A stretch of 64,000 nucleotides of DNA from Arthrobacter citreus (GTDB lineage: Bacteria > Bacillota > Bacilli > Bacillales > Bacillaceae_G), in NCBI GenBank assembly GCA_013200995.1, contig CP053688.1:124001-188000 (forward strand), read 5' to 3'. Below the pieces are notes generated by a model. That model was not told the DNA's origin, made no database searches, and saw only the letters and a program-made list of their open reading frames with translations. The position numbers and the translations under genes are program-made. Each line of letters opens with the position of its first letter. Position 1 is the first letter of the stretch. Shown in pieces: positions 725-57,535 of this stretch.

Positions 725-1164
725 GAGGCTGTCCATTTTCGGGCATCCTCTTTTTTTAGGTAGTATTAAAGAATGTGAGACCTTTAAATAAACCAGTTTG
801 AAGGTACAAATAAGAGATCAGAAGCTACAAATAAAAATAGGGAATCTGCAAATAAATTTCTTAGAATCCTAAATTAGATAGAATATTACCTATACCGGTT
901 AGGGGTATATACCGTGTTTCACCTTAATAAAGGGGCAATAGTGGCTATGTATAAAAGGAAAATGTTAAGTTTCCTCTATTTCTAATTAAACCGACTAAAA
1001 AAAATTGAGTGATCCGTTATATATTAAAAAATATGGATAAACAAATCAACTATAAATAAGAAACACCCCTAAGATACCTTCCATTTTCCAACATCCAGTT
1101 TTAAGACTGAAAAAAAGTGCGGCCCAGTCAGTTCCACTATTCTTAGGAAAGCCTCTTTTTTATG
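725..1164 (+). repeat. Dispersed intergenic repeat element, copy A
   Basis: This fills most of the 700-base gap before gerXA. It starts with a terminator-like hairpin (GAGGCTGTCC, loop, GGGCATCCTC, T7). Next come three units of (T/C)(A/G)CAAATAA spaced exactly 21 bases (about 806-860), then a small hairpin ATACC-GGTTAG-GGGTAT near 890-908. A conserved tail follows (ATCAACTATAAAT near 1046; CTAAGATACC near 1070), and the copy ends in a CAGT-rich hairpin with AGGAAAGCCTCTTTTTT. The same order of parts recurs at 29764-30281 and 56045-56455, with a divergent inverted copy at 8590-8935. It contains no convincing ORF. Function unknown. Confidence 0.75.
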
Positions 1165-8589: not shown

Positions 8590-8935
8590 TTTTATTGGAA
8601 ATTTATGCTCTACTTAATTTGATTAGACTCCCCATAAACAGGTTAGCTGATCCTTAGAGATGCGATTAAAATTGTAATTGAGAAGGGGGGACGAGGTTCT
8701 GTTTTTTTCATGAAAAAGCAGTAGATTTCGAGCCGTTTTTAGCAGTTTAGATTAAATTAAAGCAAATTTGCTAACTTTCCATTTGAAAGTATCTACTTAG
8801 GGAGGATAATTAAGTAAAAATACTATTACCGGTATGGGTATTTTTTGTATTTAATTGCCATTCTGGAAATTTAATTGCGATCCCCGAATTTTAATAGCGA
8901 TCGCGAGAGTTATTTGCGATCCCCATCACATTTTA
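8590..8935 (-). repeat. Divergent copy D of the dispersed repeat element
   Basis: This occupies most of the 600-base gap. Read on the minus strand it holds four degenerate units around (G/A)(A/T)(C/G)GCAATTAAA, spaced 19-20 bases (8851, 8871, 8891, 8910 on the plus strand). A hairpin ATACCC-ATACC-GGTAAT and a tail containing GTTAGCAAATTTGCT and AAATCTACT follow, similar to the tails of copies A-C. The order array, hairpin, tail is the same as in those copies. It begins directly behind the terminator of the minus-strand L,D-transpeptidase gene. Confidence 0.55.
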
Positions 8936-29750: not shown

Positions 29751-29763
29751 TAGTTATCAAGTA

Positions 29764-30281
29764 GAGGATGTCCTATTGGGCATTCTTTTTTTATAAGCAT
29801 CACATAAAAGAAGAGTAGAAAAGTCGGGTGAAATGAAAATAGAGAAACTGCAAAAAAAGTTGATGAAAAGTGCAAATAAATCGGTGTGTTGTGCAAATAA
29901 GAAATCTAAAGCTGCAAATAAAGTATAAACTGCAAATGAAATCAGTGAAACTGCAATTAAAATTAACGAAACTGCAAATAAAGTCTTTAGAATCCTTAAT
30001 GTTATAGAATATTACCTATACGGGTTGGGGTATTTCGAATGAATAATCGTCTAAAACTGGATGCTTACAAATAGAAGATTAGTAAGTTAGCTCAAATTCT
30101 TACTAAACTGATTAAAAAGTGAAAGAAAACAACTGATTTTTTTAAAATAGTGATGATAAAATCAACTATAAATGCAAAATCCCACTAAGATACCCCGCAT
30201 TTTAGCTACTAGAGCCATGATAAATAAAAGGAGTCCCATGTGTCAGTTATCCTTACTATAAGGACAGCCTCTATTTTTGTT
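29764..30281 (+). repeat. Dispersed intergenic repeat element, copy B
   Basis: This is the largest copy and fills most of the 615-base gap after the MOSC gene. It opens with the terminator hairpin GAGGATGTCC/GGGCATTC plus T7, 13 bases after the MOSC stop. Seven (C/G)TGCAA(A/T)(T/A)(A/G)A units follow, spaced 18 to 22 bases and mostly 21 (29849-29990). Next come TATACGGGTTGGGGTAT and a tail with AAACTGATTAAAAAGTGA, ATCAACTATAAAT and CACTAAGATACCCC. It ends with the hairpin-forming GTCAGTT...AAGGACAGCCTC and T run. One frame through the array stays open, reading LQIK-like heptads, but it has no start signals. Confidence 0.8.
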
Positions 30282-31033: not shown

Positions 31034-31082
31034 TAGAGGCCGTCTATTTGTCAGTTACGCTGACTATTAGGACGGCCTCATT
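31034..31082. terminator. Bidirectional terminator, related to the repeat-element tail
   Basis: GAGGCCGTC pairs with GACGGCCTC around an inner GTCAGT/ACTGAC-like stem. It ends the pentapeptide-repeat gene on the minus strand. The sequence resembles the terminal hairpins of repeat copies A and B. Confidence 0.8.
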
Positions 31083-31106
31083 TTGTACAAATTTAAAAAT
31101 GCTTTA

Positions 31107-31742
31107 CTAATCTTTAATTTTTAATCCCATTAATGCTGCGAATTGAACTGCTTGATTAGAAGAAACTGTACAGCCATGTAAATTATTTATTGAAACTGTT
31201 AATTCATTAAATGTAGAAGAACTAATATCAATCCCTTTAAGAGAAGTTTGATCAAAGTTTACTCCATCAATATTACATTTATTAAAATCAATTTTTTTGA
31301 ATTTACAATCATAAAAATCAGTACTTTTTAAAATAGAATCATGAAAAATTACCTTTTCTAGTTTTGAATTCCCAAATATAGATAAATTTAAAACAGAGTT
31401 GTCAAACTGGACATTCCCAAGGCTAGATTCAGTAAAATTTGCACCTACTAACTTACAATTCTTAAAGGTAACTTTATGAATGGAAGCATTGGTCATATTG
31501 CAATTTGACAGATCACAGTTTTCAAAATATACATCTGACATACTTATATTTCTAAAATCTGTATTGGTGAATTTACTATTCTTGATGACCATTTTATATA
31601 AATAAACTCTATCTACGGATTCGTTTTCAAAAATAGACCCAGTGATTTCACACATCCCCAATTCCGGGTCTTCTTCATAAAAAATATCATGAAAATTTCT
31701 AGATTGTAATTCTTTAGGAATATTAGGTGTATCGATTTTCAT
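31107..31742 (-). CDS. Pentapeptide-repeat protein
   Basis: The 211-residue chain is nearly all pentapeptide repeats of the A(D/N)(L/F)xx type (about residues 40-185: FTNTDFRNISMSDVYFENCD, LVGANFTESSLGNVQFDNSV, FKKIDFNKCNIDGVNF). It should fold into a right-handed quadrilateral beta-helix. The C-terminal AVQFAALMGLKI resembles the dimerisation tail of Qnr/MfpA-like proteins, so a DNA-mimic role protecting gyrase is possible, but many such proteins have no known function. The gene is alone, with a hairpin terminator after it. Confidence 0.85.
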   Translation of the reverse strand: MKIDTPNIPKELQSRNFHDIFYEEDPELGMCEITGSIFENESVDRVYLYKMVIKNSKFTNTDFRNISMSDVYFENCDLSNCNMTNASIHKVTFKNCKLVGANFTESSLGNVQFDNSVLNLSIFGNSKLEKVIFHDSILKSTDFYDCKFKKIDFNKCNIDGVNFDQTSLKGIDISSSTFNELTVSINNLHGCTVSSNQAVQFAALMGLKIKD

Positions 31743-54831: not shown

Positions 54832-56028
54832 ATGAAGGGAAATAGGTTTGATACAAAGTTAATACATGAAGGGTACAAAACTAGTGAGTATCACGGGAGT
54901 TTAACTCCTCCGTTATTTCATACGTCAACGTATACATTTCCAACAGCACAGCATGGTGAACAATCTTTTAGTGGAGAAAGAGAAGACTTTATTTATTCAA
55001 GGCTTGGAAATCCAACAGTTCAAATTTTAGAGGAACGAATGGCAGCTCTAGAAGAAGGCGAAGCAGCTTTAGCATTTGGTTCTGGCATGGCAGCTGTTTC
55101 AGCCACAATTTTCTCTTTAATAAGTTCAGGCGATCACATCATCTGCTCGAAAGGAATTTACGGTTGTACGTATGGATATTTAGAAATGCTAGAATGCAAG
55201 TTTGGTATCCAACATAACTTTTGTGAAATGGATACAGAAGAAGAATTAAGTGCATTAATTCAAGATAACACAAAGGTAATATTTATTGAGACTCCAATTA
55301 ATCCAACAATGAAAGTGATCGACATTGAGATGATTGTAGAGGTAGCTAAGAAAAATAATATAATGCTTGTAGTTGATAATACATTTTGTTCCCCATATCT
55401 ACAAAAGCCACTTACGCTAGGATGTGACATTGTACTTCATAGTGCCACGAAGTACATTAGTGGTCATGGAGATGTAGTTGCAGGAATCGTAGTTTGCAAA
55501 ACAAAAGAGTTAGCTGAACGAATGCTCCCTATACGAAAAGACATTGGAGCAATTATGTCTCCGTTTGATGCATGGCTGCTACTTCGAGGGTTAAAAACAC
55601 TAGCAGTTCGAATGGATCGCCAATGTGAAAACGCTGAGAAGGTCGTTGCATATCTACAATCCAATCCAATCGTAAAAGAAGTGTTTTACCCTGGCGATTC
55701 AAAAAATAAAGACCATTATATTGCCAGTAAACAAATGAAAAAAGGTGGCGGTGTCATCGCCTTTACCATCCACGGTACGAAACAAGAAACACAGGAATTT
55801 ATCAATCAATTAAAAATGGTAAAAATAGCAGTAAGCTTAGGCGATACCGAAACATTAATCCAACATCCATCTACAATGACACACGCAGTCGTTCCAAAAG
55901 AATTACAACAAAAAATGGGTATCACAGATAATTTGTTACGAATGTCAGTAGGCCTTGAAGCATGGGAAGACATCGTAGCTGATCTAAGGCAAGCTTTTAC
56001 TAAGTCTAGTGGCAACAAGGTATATTAA
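54832..56028 (+). CDS. Methionine gamma-lyase (Cys/Met metabolism PLP enzyme)
   Basis: This PLP-dependent enzyme should split methionine into methanethiol, 2-oxobutyrate and ammonia. The cofactor Lys lies in LHSATKYISGHGDV (about residue 209), with SGMAAVSATIFSL and ETPINPTMKVIDI. The Tyr-Gly-Cys in KGIYGCTYGYLE places Cys at the position diagnostic of methionine gamma-lyases, which argues against cystathionine gamma-synthase or beta-lyase. The end MSVGLEAWEDIVADL is standard. Length of 398 residues is normal. It has an AAGGAGG site and is followed by a terminator that also begins repeat copy C. Confidence 0.9.
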   Translation: MKGNRFDTKLIHEGYKTSEYHGSLTPPLFHTSTYTFPTAQHGEQSFSGEREDFIYSRLGNPTVQILEERMAALEEGEAALAFGSGMAAVSATIFSLISSGDHIICSKGIYGCTYGYLEMLECKFGIQHNFCEMDTEEELSALIQDNTKVIFIETPINPTMKVIDIEMIVEVAKKNNIMLVVDNTFCSPYLQKPLTLGCDIVLHSATKYISGHGDVVAGIVVCKTKELAERMLPIRKDIGAIMSPFDAWLLLRGLKTLAVRMDRQCENAEKVVAYLQSNPIVKEVFYPGDSKNKDHYIASKQMKKGGGVIAFTIHGTKQETQEFINQLKMVKIAVSLGDTETLIQHPSTMTHAVVPKELQQKMGITDNLLRMSVGLEAWEDIVADLRQAFTKSSGNKVY

Positions 56029-56044
56029 TTTAAGATAATAGATA

Positions 56045-56455
56045 GAGGTTGTCCCGAATGTAGTATTTTAGGGGCAGCCTTTTTTTATATTTGTAGGTTT
56101 AGGCGTAGTACAAATAAGGAAGCGGGAAGTGCAAATAAAGGTCGAAGTGCAAATAAAAATAGAGAAACTGCAAATAAATTTAGTTAAACTGCAATTAAAT
56201 TATCTAGTAATACTAATTAGATCGATTAATACATATACCGGTAAGGGTATCTAACCTTGATATTTGCTCAAAAGTAGATAATGAATAAATTTGCTCTGGA
56301 TTCCTTCCAAACCGATTAAAAAAGTGAAGAAATCTACTAAAAATCTATAAATGGAGATTATAAATTCAACTCTAACTGAAAAATGCCATTAAGATAGCCC
56401 CATTTTCCATCTAGACAGACTTAAATCGTGAAGTTAAATAGGGGTCGGACCTAAA
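56045..56455 (+). repeat. Dispersed intergenic repeat element, copy C
   Basis: It opens 17 bases after the methionine gamma-lyase stop with a terminator hairpin (GAGGTTGTCCC/GGGGCAGCC plus T7). Five (G/C)T(A/G)CAA(A/T)TAA units follow, with spacings 21, 18, 21 and 21 (56108-56200). Next come ATACC-GGTAA-GGGTAT and a tail with AAACCGATTAAAAAAGTGA, AAATCTACT, TTCAACT and CATTAAGATAGCCCCATTTTCCA. The order and spacing match copies A and B. The rest of the gap up to 56695 holds only a weak frame with no start site. Confidence 0.8.
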
Positions 56456-56695
56456 CCTTGAAACGGTCAATTTAATTAGTTGAAATAATATTTGGAACAA
56501 GCTATCTACATAGAGAAATTAGGGAGATTTTTTTGTAGAAATATGATTCAAAAAGGGGGTATAACTAGTCAAAATCGTAATAGTATTATTAAAAAAGCAT
56601 CGATAAAGACTAAAAAATACCAATTTGATGTGAACTTCTTTCTGGGTAGACTTATCTCATTAATTGAAAATAGCTCATACAATCCCCACTAAAAA

Positions 56696-56746: not shown

Positions 56747-57535
56747 TTACTCATTCAAAGATTCAATAATCGGATAAAGCCCTTCTAAATGAGTAATTTC
56801 ATATGAAGGAATAACTTCATTTCGTTCTTTATTATGTCTGTTAATCCATACGTTTTTCATACCAATTCGGTTAGATCCTAGAATATCAGTCATCAGATTA
56901 TCACCGACCATTATTACTTCATCTTTTGAAAGTTCCATTAATGAGAGAGCATGTTCGAATATGCTTGGGTCGGGTTTTCCTTTTCCGAAGTCGCCGGAAA
57001 TTAGGATTTGATCAAAATATTCTTTAATTTCAGGAGTGATTGAAAGTTTAGTGTGCTGTAAATCAGGTGAGCCGTTTGTGAGTAATAGAAGTTTATACTT
57101 TTCGTTTAATTGATTGAGCACAGCAAATGTTTCATCGTAAACAAATGGATTTCCTTTACGTTCTTCAGGGAAAGTATCAGCGAGTAATTGTCCAAATTCT
57201 TGGTCTTCAATGCCAAAGGATTTTAAAGCAAGCGTCCATGCATTTTTTCGATATGATGAAGAGTTCGCTCTCATTTTTGGGAATTGATCATGTTCCTCAA
57301 GGAAATTTCCCCAAAGACCTTCAAAAGGGTTAATGCCAATTAATTTAGTGAATTCGTATGTATCGTATGATGCATAAAGATTTCTAGCTGAATCACGTAC
57401 AGCTTTTTCATAATCAATCGGGTTAATTCCGTATTTTTCTGTAACTAGTTTACATGTGTTGGCAAATGCTACTTCTACACTTTTTTGATCCCACAGTAAT
57501 GTATCATCTAAATCAAAAATTATTCCTTTAATCAT
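56747..57535 (-). CDS. HAD-superfamily hydrolase (subfamily IA)
   Basis: The 262-residue phosphatase has all HAD motifs: I, IIFDLDDTLLWD with the nucleophile Asp (about residue 8); II, LLLLTNGSPD; III, GKGKPDPSIFEHAL with Lys; and IV, VIMVGDNLMTDILGS. The helical cap between motifs I and II puts it with YjjG/YfnB-type sugar or nucleotide phosphatases. The substrate is unknown. The ATG follows AAGGAG on the minus strand, and the gene has its own terminator. Confidence 0.92.
   Translation of the reverse strand: MIKGIIFDLDDTLLWDQKSVEVAFANTCKLVTEKYGINPIDYEKAVRDSARNLYASYDTYEFTKLIGINPFEGLWGNFLEEHDQFPKMRANSSSYRKNAWTLALKSFGIEDQEFGQLLADTFPEERKGNPFVYDETFAVLNQLNEKYKLLLLTNGSPDLQHTKLSITPEIKEYFDQILISGDFGKGKPDPSIFEHALSLMELSKDEVIMVGDNLMTDILGSNRIGMKNVWINRHNKERNEVIPSYEITHLEGLYPIIESLNE

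Follow-up and report, generated by a model that had tools for sequence, protein, structure and literature searches.

Arrays of short direct repeats at 21-bp spacing behind genes of Bacillales, and a dispersed composite element that carries them

The closest described kind of element that we found is the STAR element of Staphylococcus, a set of interspersed intergenic direct repeats for which no function has been described (PMC3532100). As presented there, STAR elements resemble the arrays reported here in their constant motif, variable locus-specific spacers, varying number of units and species-specific loci, and differ in being built from a GC-rich 14-mer with spacers of 40–44 bp (PMC3532100). 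Our arrays, too, are direct repeats between genes in which the motif is constant and the spacers vary, but they repeat an 8–10 bp GCRNRTAA core every 20–21 bp, and different genomes use variants of this core. The STAR motif itself, T(G/A/T)TGTTG(G/T)GGCCC(C/A) with up to three mismatches, occurred 14 times in the window (the whole 64,000-bp stretch of DNA that was analysed, from a genome deposited as Arthrobacter citreus) against 17.9 expected, and never in the four element copies A–D described below. The bcr1 family of the Bacillus cereus group (147–167 bp, dispersed, with a predicted common fold and, according to a cited title, characteristics of a mobile element) is also a dispersed intergenic repeat of Bacillus genomes; compared by description, it has another architecture, and the composite found here lacks any fold beyond a 5-bp hairpin (PMC2267715). 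Among the papers listed by searches of open-licence full texts, none describes the present arrays, and no Rfam covariance model matched the window at gathering scores, in line with the statement of an earlier, sequence-only reading of this DNA that no described family fits.

Enterobacterial REP/BIME sequences are palindromic stem-loops that lie behind genes, are rare between divergent promoters, and are thought to affect supercoiling or mRNA ends; the arrays here are also found behind genes and rarely in divergent gaps, but they are direct repeats and not palindromes. Iteron arrays and Tn7-type ends present direct repeats about two helical turns apart that are cooperatively bound by protein, and are confined to one origin or element end, whereas our arrays are spread over tens of loci on the chromosome, and we noticed no cognate gene alongside. 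The reverse complement of the core, TTAYNYGC, is similar to the DnaA box except for a G at the position of an A in the box consensus, and the window contains no DnaA box (TTATNCACA). A CRISPR array was rejected, the units being cores of 8–10 bp with spacers of 11–13 bp and not identical repeats of more than 20 bp.

Within the window the arrays belong to a composite of about 0.45 kb, whose copies A, B and C had been recognized in the sequence-only reading as sharing an ordered set of parts; to these we add a fourth copy, D, and the remnant of an older element, C':
725..757, plus strand: copy A, terminator-type head hairpin with T run, read in place.
804..858, plus strand: copy A, array of 3 units with a 21-bp step, read in place.
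892..908, plus strand: copy A, ATACC/GGTAT hairpin, read in place.
987..1079, plus strand: copy A, conserved tail ending in CTAAGATACC, from the alignment of 20 copies.
1117..1160, plus strand: copy A, tail hairpin, degenerate, read in place.
8700..8925, minus strand: copy D.
29763..29792, plus strand: copy B, head hairpin/terminator, immediately 3' of a MOSC gene.
29850..29985, plus strand: copy B, array of about 7 units, one mismatch allowed.
30018..30033, plus strand: copy B, ATACG/GGTAT hairpin.
30106..30197, plus strand: copy B, conserved tail ending in CTAAGATACCCC.
30229..30277, plus strand: copy B, tail hairpin of terminator type, which would serve the convergent gene.
56045..56086, plus strand: copy C, head hairpin with T run.
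56108..56203, plus strand: copy C, array of 5 units (steps 21, 18, 21, 21).
56235..56250, plus strand: copy C, ATACC/GGTAT hairpin.
56310..56402, plus strand: copy C, conserved tail.
About 56551..56600, minus strand: C', remainder of the tail of an older element, following a convergent HAD-hydrolase gene.

All of the parts that had been named for A, B and C were present and in order, namely the GAGGnTGTCC head hairpin (at 725, 29764 and 56045), the 21-bp units with some at 18 (one 18-bp step each in C and in B, where the steps are 22, 21, 21, 18, 21, 21), the small hairpin, and the blocks of the tail. The AGGA(C/A)AGCCTC ends attributed to A and B were also read in both, but their motif TAGGACnGCCTC taken alone is at chance level in the window (5 matches vs. 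4.2 expected). Copy D comprises units GCAAATAA/GCAATTAA, a hairpin ATACC..GTAT and a partial tail, preceded by a different terminator hairpin. C' lies on the strand opposite to copy C, at a locus that bears an array in seven sister species. The tail of copy A was missed by the tail-block pattern in the scan of own-genome loci, and its tail hairpin by a fuzzy scan of 23 own copies. A tail-type hairpin (GAGGCCGTC..GTCAGTTACGCTGAC..GGACGGCCTC) also stands without an array at 31034–31085, terminator-like behind a pentapeptide-repeat gene (31107–31742, minus strand); because it is also found alone, the tail-type hairpin is a separable module.

A search of the complete genome, as the sequence-only reading had proposed, found many dispersed copies in conserved order (a hairpin-like match at 23 loci or more), supporting its description of a non-coding dispersed element. 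Genome-wide, the motif STGCAAATAAA has 75 + 62 occurrences and its reversed pattern 7 + 22, while the pair YGCAAATAAA-N11-YGCAAATAAA has 20 and its reversed form none; copy C as a DNA query gave 49 matches at E ≤ 0.001, and copies B and C hit tens of genomic places. Among 33 own-genome loci, a hairpin-like match, with at most 6 substitutions in 22, was present in 24, of which 20 had the tail block as well, the latter following the hairpin by 93–94 bp in 13 of the 20 and by 10–22 bp less in the other 7; a further GATACCC block follows the tail block by 77–78 bp in 15 of the 17 loci having both. With L061 left out (a hairpin with 6 mismatches and no tail block), fuzzy matching without a chance control detected a head hairpin in 18 of 23 copies and a tail hairpin in 10. 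Mean column identity in the alignment of own copies was 70%. With dnaA at 3.764 Mb and the terminus assumed to lie opposite, 83 of the 100 units listed (137 in all) point in the direction of replication, as do 50 of the 64 loci formed from those listed, an alignment that may simply reflect gene orientation.

Spacing of the units is narrowly constrained. Steps that had not been used in array detection fell at 21 bp (142), 20 (22), 42 (13), 40 (11) and 18 (8), with none at 19; two other scans gave two 19-bp steps each. In one of those, covering the window and 11 own-genome regions, every same-strand pair within 70 bp was at 18–22, 39–42 or 58–63 bp, and the reversed motif gave no such pairs. Steps of mostly 20–21 bp align successive sites along one helical face; the 18-bp step, no helical multiple, and the 19-bp steps count against this phasing. 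Power of AA/TT at 10.5 bp exceeded that of shuffles (P < 0.05) in 7 of the 10 arrays tested, the arrays of B, C and genome G353 being the nonsignificant ones, although this power is partly a harmonic of the 21-bp repeat. Among the matches listed, genomes tended to favor one core at several loci with differing spacers (GCAAATAA, GCAAGTAA, GCGCATAA, GCACATAA, GCGAATAA, GCGGATAA and more were seen), a tendency that is not strict, since G334 mixes three variants and G107, G391 and others two; the same variant is used by unrelated genera among these matches.

The arrays, and not the 0.45-kb composite, are the broad part of the phenomenon, a point missed by the sequence-only reading. Nine of the 13 genomes of the genus have exact 21-bp pairs, and copy C matches the same nine; the other four (G004, G006, G008 and G011) are array-free. 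The full composite layout is also present in other Gottfriedia genomes, and a profile of 20 own copies found near-full-length cores in other genomes of the genus among the loci searched, including G. acidiceleris 1-17 (L107) and G. luciferensis CH01 (L115); from these relatives we take the window's own genome to be a Gottfriedia as well. A further own-genome copy, L010, used as a query against the four array-free genomes, gave below E 1e-3 a single stretch resembling an array (28 bp in G006, E 3e-4), its stronger matches being to the coding end of the query. G011 retains the C' tail, yet has no genome match to either 21-bp array pattern, and this loss could be a natural case pointing towards the putative binding protein considered below. 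Eight species (G001, G002, G003, G005, G007, G009, G010 and G012) share a nearly identical pair, TGCAAATAAAGCACAAAT(T/G)GGTGCAAATAAA, which may lie in a conserved gene or mark an especially constrained site.

Outside the genus the core is shared, while no composite tail was seen in the loci read; among the matches listed, Cytobacillus, Fictibacillus, Metabacillus and further genera have arrays either after a gene or in the space between two. Within the order, Bacillales to judge by its named members, the exact pair YGCAAATAAA-N11-YGCAAATAAA is found in 16 of 397 genomes, representing 8 of 135 genera, and its reversed control in one genome. Three GCRNRTAA cores at 21 bp gave 280 matches, in 41 of the 397 genomes and 26 of the 135 genera, and the reversed three-unit control 36 matches in 11 of the 397, with 20 of the 36 falling in array-rich G071; two or more matches were found in 26 genomes for the pattern and 4 for the control. 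The breadth across the order is thus partly uncertain, since the control matches 11 of 397 genomes and, of the 41 positive genomes, 15 owe this to one match only. The three-unit pattern was absent from 295 sampled genomes outside the order, and in the full phylum sample of 299 it appeared only in the window's own genome, the control appearing in three others. The scan of named genomes also listed matches in unrelated phyla, some of them within genes. Two loci of a Planctomycetaceae metagenome-assembled genome (L119 and L131) hold arrays of TGCAAATAAA with a perfect 21-bp period and as many as 10 units, which probably represent an independent tandem repeat of that unrelated phylum.

Placement relative to genes was assessed for the 163 arrays of at least three units from all loci (other phyla included), with genes called by a simple ORF rule and only exactly identical arrays removed, so that orthologs are counted repeatedly. 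By a stricter rule 156 were non-coding and only 7 lay inside an ORF, and a coding array was rejected on this ground; the simple rule had put ORFs over 50 of 183 arrays of two or more units (partly real genes in unrelated phyla) and over 19 of 50 loci, open frames that arise mechanically because 21 bp is 7 codons. In co-directional gaps, 69 of the 156 non-coding arrays were sense and 21 antisense (P about 4e–7); a further 50 lay in convergent gaps and 7 in divergent ones, and 9 had one neighbor missing. Among 114 sense arrays, 78 lie beyond a hairpin with T run (counted without a chance control) and 36 do not, the share being 29 of 32 for the own genome and genus and 49 of 82 for all other loci, some named Gottfriedia among them. 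No recurrent gene was noticed by eye beside the arrays. In two convergent gaps the orientation of the array differs among species, one being a gap between genes that we take, from their sequence, to be tsaD and an ABC-transporter gene (G130, L316, vs. G207, L317). At L316 and L317 this gap holds TTATCCACA-like DnaA boxes as well as the array; in Bacillus subtilis this gap is a DnaA-box cluster.

Selection on the arrays could be gauged best at C', in the gap between the window genes at 54832–56028 (Cys/Met PLP enzyme) and 56747–57535 (HAD hydrolase). Its orthologs were recovered through the flanking Cys/Met PLP gene, and so form a sample independent of the arrays. The element is present on the opposite strand in seven species (G001, G003, G005, G007, G009, G010 and G012), survives as remnants with the array lost in G002, G011 and G000, and was not seen in the gap of G004, G006 or G008. 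We compared four species with the reference G007, leaving out G003 and the expanded array of G012. Cores were 97.7% identical (216 positions) and spacers 83.9% (267 positions, one gap in 268), a difference with Fisher P about 1.4e–7, although the positions are not independent because the species are related. In the same comparison the tail block was 95.9% identical, the hairpin 85.2% and the middle 76.8% (10 gaps), the following DNA 76.1% (770 positions, 98 gaps), and the stretch before the array, which includes coding sequence and a terminator, 91.5%. In another genus, at L298/L299, cores agreed at all 24 aligned positions (8 more fall within a missing unit), spacers at 32 of 46, and flanks at 86.9%. 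Cores were no better conserved than spacers in the pairs L300/L301 and L300/L302 (24–26 positions each), though in L300/L302 both far exceeded the flanks (92% vs. 64%). Unit number differs among the C' orthologs, by expansion in G012 and by deletions in G002 and G011.

The spacing of 20–21 bp, the constrained cores, the differing spacers of unlinked loci and the confinement to one order together point to a trans-acting protein that binds double-stranded DNA, and the position behind genes, often beyond a terminator-like hairpin, would suit a roadblock or insulator. Our preferred explanation, quite possible but held tentatively, is that the helically phased array is a set of sites for such a putative protein and that, bound at the ends of genes, it works as a roadblock or as an insulator. 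Sites of about 10 bp (GCRNRTAA with flanking A/T), mostly 20–21 bp apart on one face of the helix, would be bound cooperatively by a sequence-specific protein of the order, and the bound array behind genes would block or insulate against read-through transcription and supercoils. The genus has packaged the array with an inverted repeat and the conserved tail, many copies also having a terminator on one side or on both, and the resulting composite of about 0.45 kb has spread to many gene ends, by a putative copying route. Findings that count against sites for a protein include the loss of arrays at C' in G002, G011 and G000, the mixing of core variants within genomes, the lack of a core–spacer difference in L300/L301 and L300/L302, and the sense bias, which a pure DNA site need not show. 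A wider form of this proposal, which we consider possible but on the unlikely side, would have a chromosome-organizing or insulating protein of the order co-evolve with lineage-specific dialects of the array, both protein and arrays having been lost in several species.

No array, hairpin or tail was seen behind the MOSC gene (0.6–1 kb) in the 10 other species in which that gene was found, and forward copy C was not seen in 12 other species (the G004 gene being only 60% identical); the sites orthologous to B and C carry other terminators. At L010, compared with the array-free G006, G008 and G011, two convergent genes are separated by a short gap with a terminator in G011 and G006, and by unrelated DNA in G008. 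That the copies B, C and L010 are missing in the relatives checked indicates a recent spread of the composite; judged from these alignments it is new at B and C in its own genome, where it brings its own terminator.

A rather unlikely alternative is that the composite is a MITE-like or otherwise mobile non-autonomous unit, moved by a transposase or by recombination, with the repeats as binding sites or passengers. Its many copies with ordered parts, its patchy distribution in the order and the complementary ends of A and B would fit, as would its absence from relatives at B, C and L010. Sites lacking the element, of the kind that the sequence-only reading had suggested looking for, were seen at these three loci, but their terminators differ as well and the intergenic DNA there has diverged too far for a duplication to be visible. 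No target duplication was seen by eye around A–C, and the inverted ends GAGGnTGTCC / GGA(C/A)AGCCTC of A and B are terminator-like stems that were not detected in many copies. The chance frequency of the end motif, the solitary tail-type hairpin, the sharing of core but not tail outside the genus, and the constraint on cores at a fixed locus also speak against mobility, as does the lack of any match to copy C among 72,556 plasmid and 50,697 phage records, on which a plasmid or phage origin was rejected.

The sense bias leaves room for a role in the transcript, namely a 3' untranslated RNA element in which an RNA-binding protein on the repeated unit would set mRNA stability or termination, an explanation that we regard as quite unlikely. 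In several other genera the array lies, by eye, between stop codon and terminator, and the 36 sense arrays without a preceding hairpin and T run would accord with this, but the 29 of 32 and 49 of 82 that follow one would not; antisense arrays are moreover not rare, the change of array orientation among species in two convergent gaps favors DNA over RNA, and RNA has no need of regular 21-bp spacing. The sequence-only reading had also offered an RNA element, with covarying stems as support. In an alignment of 46 sequences (47 rows less copy A, which has an insertion in the hairpin) the 5 pairs of the small hairpin scored 0.065, level with shuffles (0.061; 191 of 500 at least equal), with one compensatory cell. 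RNAalifold gave no structure beyond this 5-bp hairpin. With no Rfam match in the window and no covariation in the hairpin, a reading as RNA is unsupported, and an RNA family was rejected by Rfam, RNAalifold and pair counting alike. A selfish or neutral satellite, homogenized by slippage and gene conversion and tolerated behind genes because promoters are absent there, seems improbable: the varying unit number at C', the near-identical tandem units of G150, G166 and G391 and the lack of a core–spacer difference in L300/L301 and L300/L302 would suit it, but most arrays read combine like cores with unlike spacers, the cores are kept while spacers drift at C' and L298/L299, and the narrow range of steps, the orientation bias and the restriction to one order all tell against it.

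On the preferred reading, that of phased sites for a DNA-binding protein at gene ends, the array offers a direct handle on its biology, both for fishing out the putative protein and through comparison of array-bearing with array-free species. If it proves to be a host architectural system, it would be a Gram-positive counterpart to the biology of REP/BIME.
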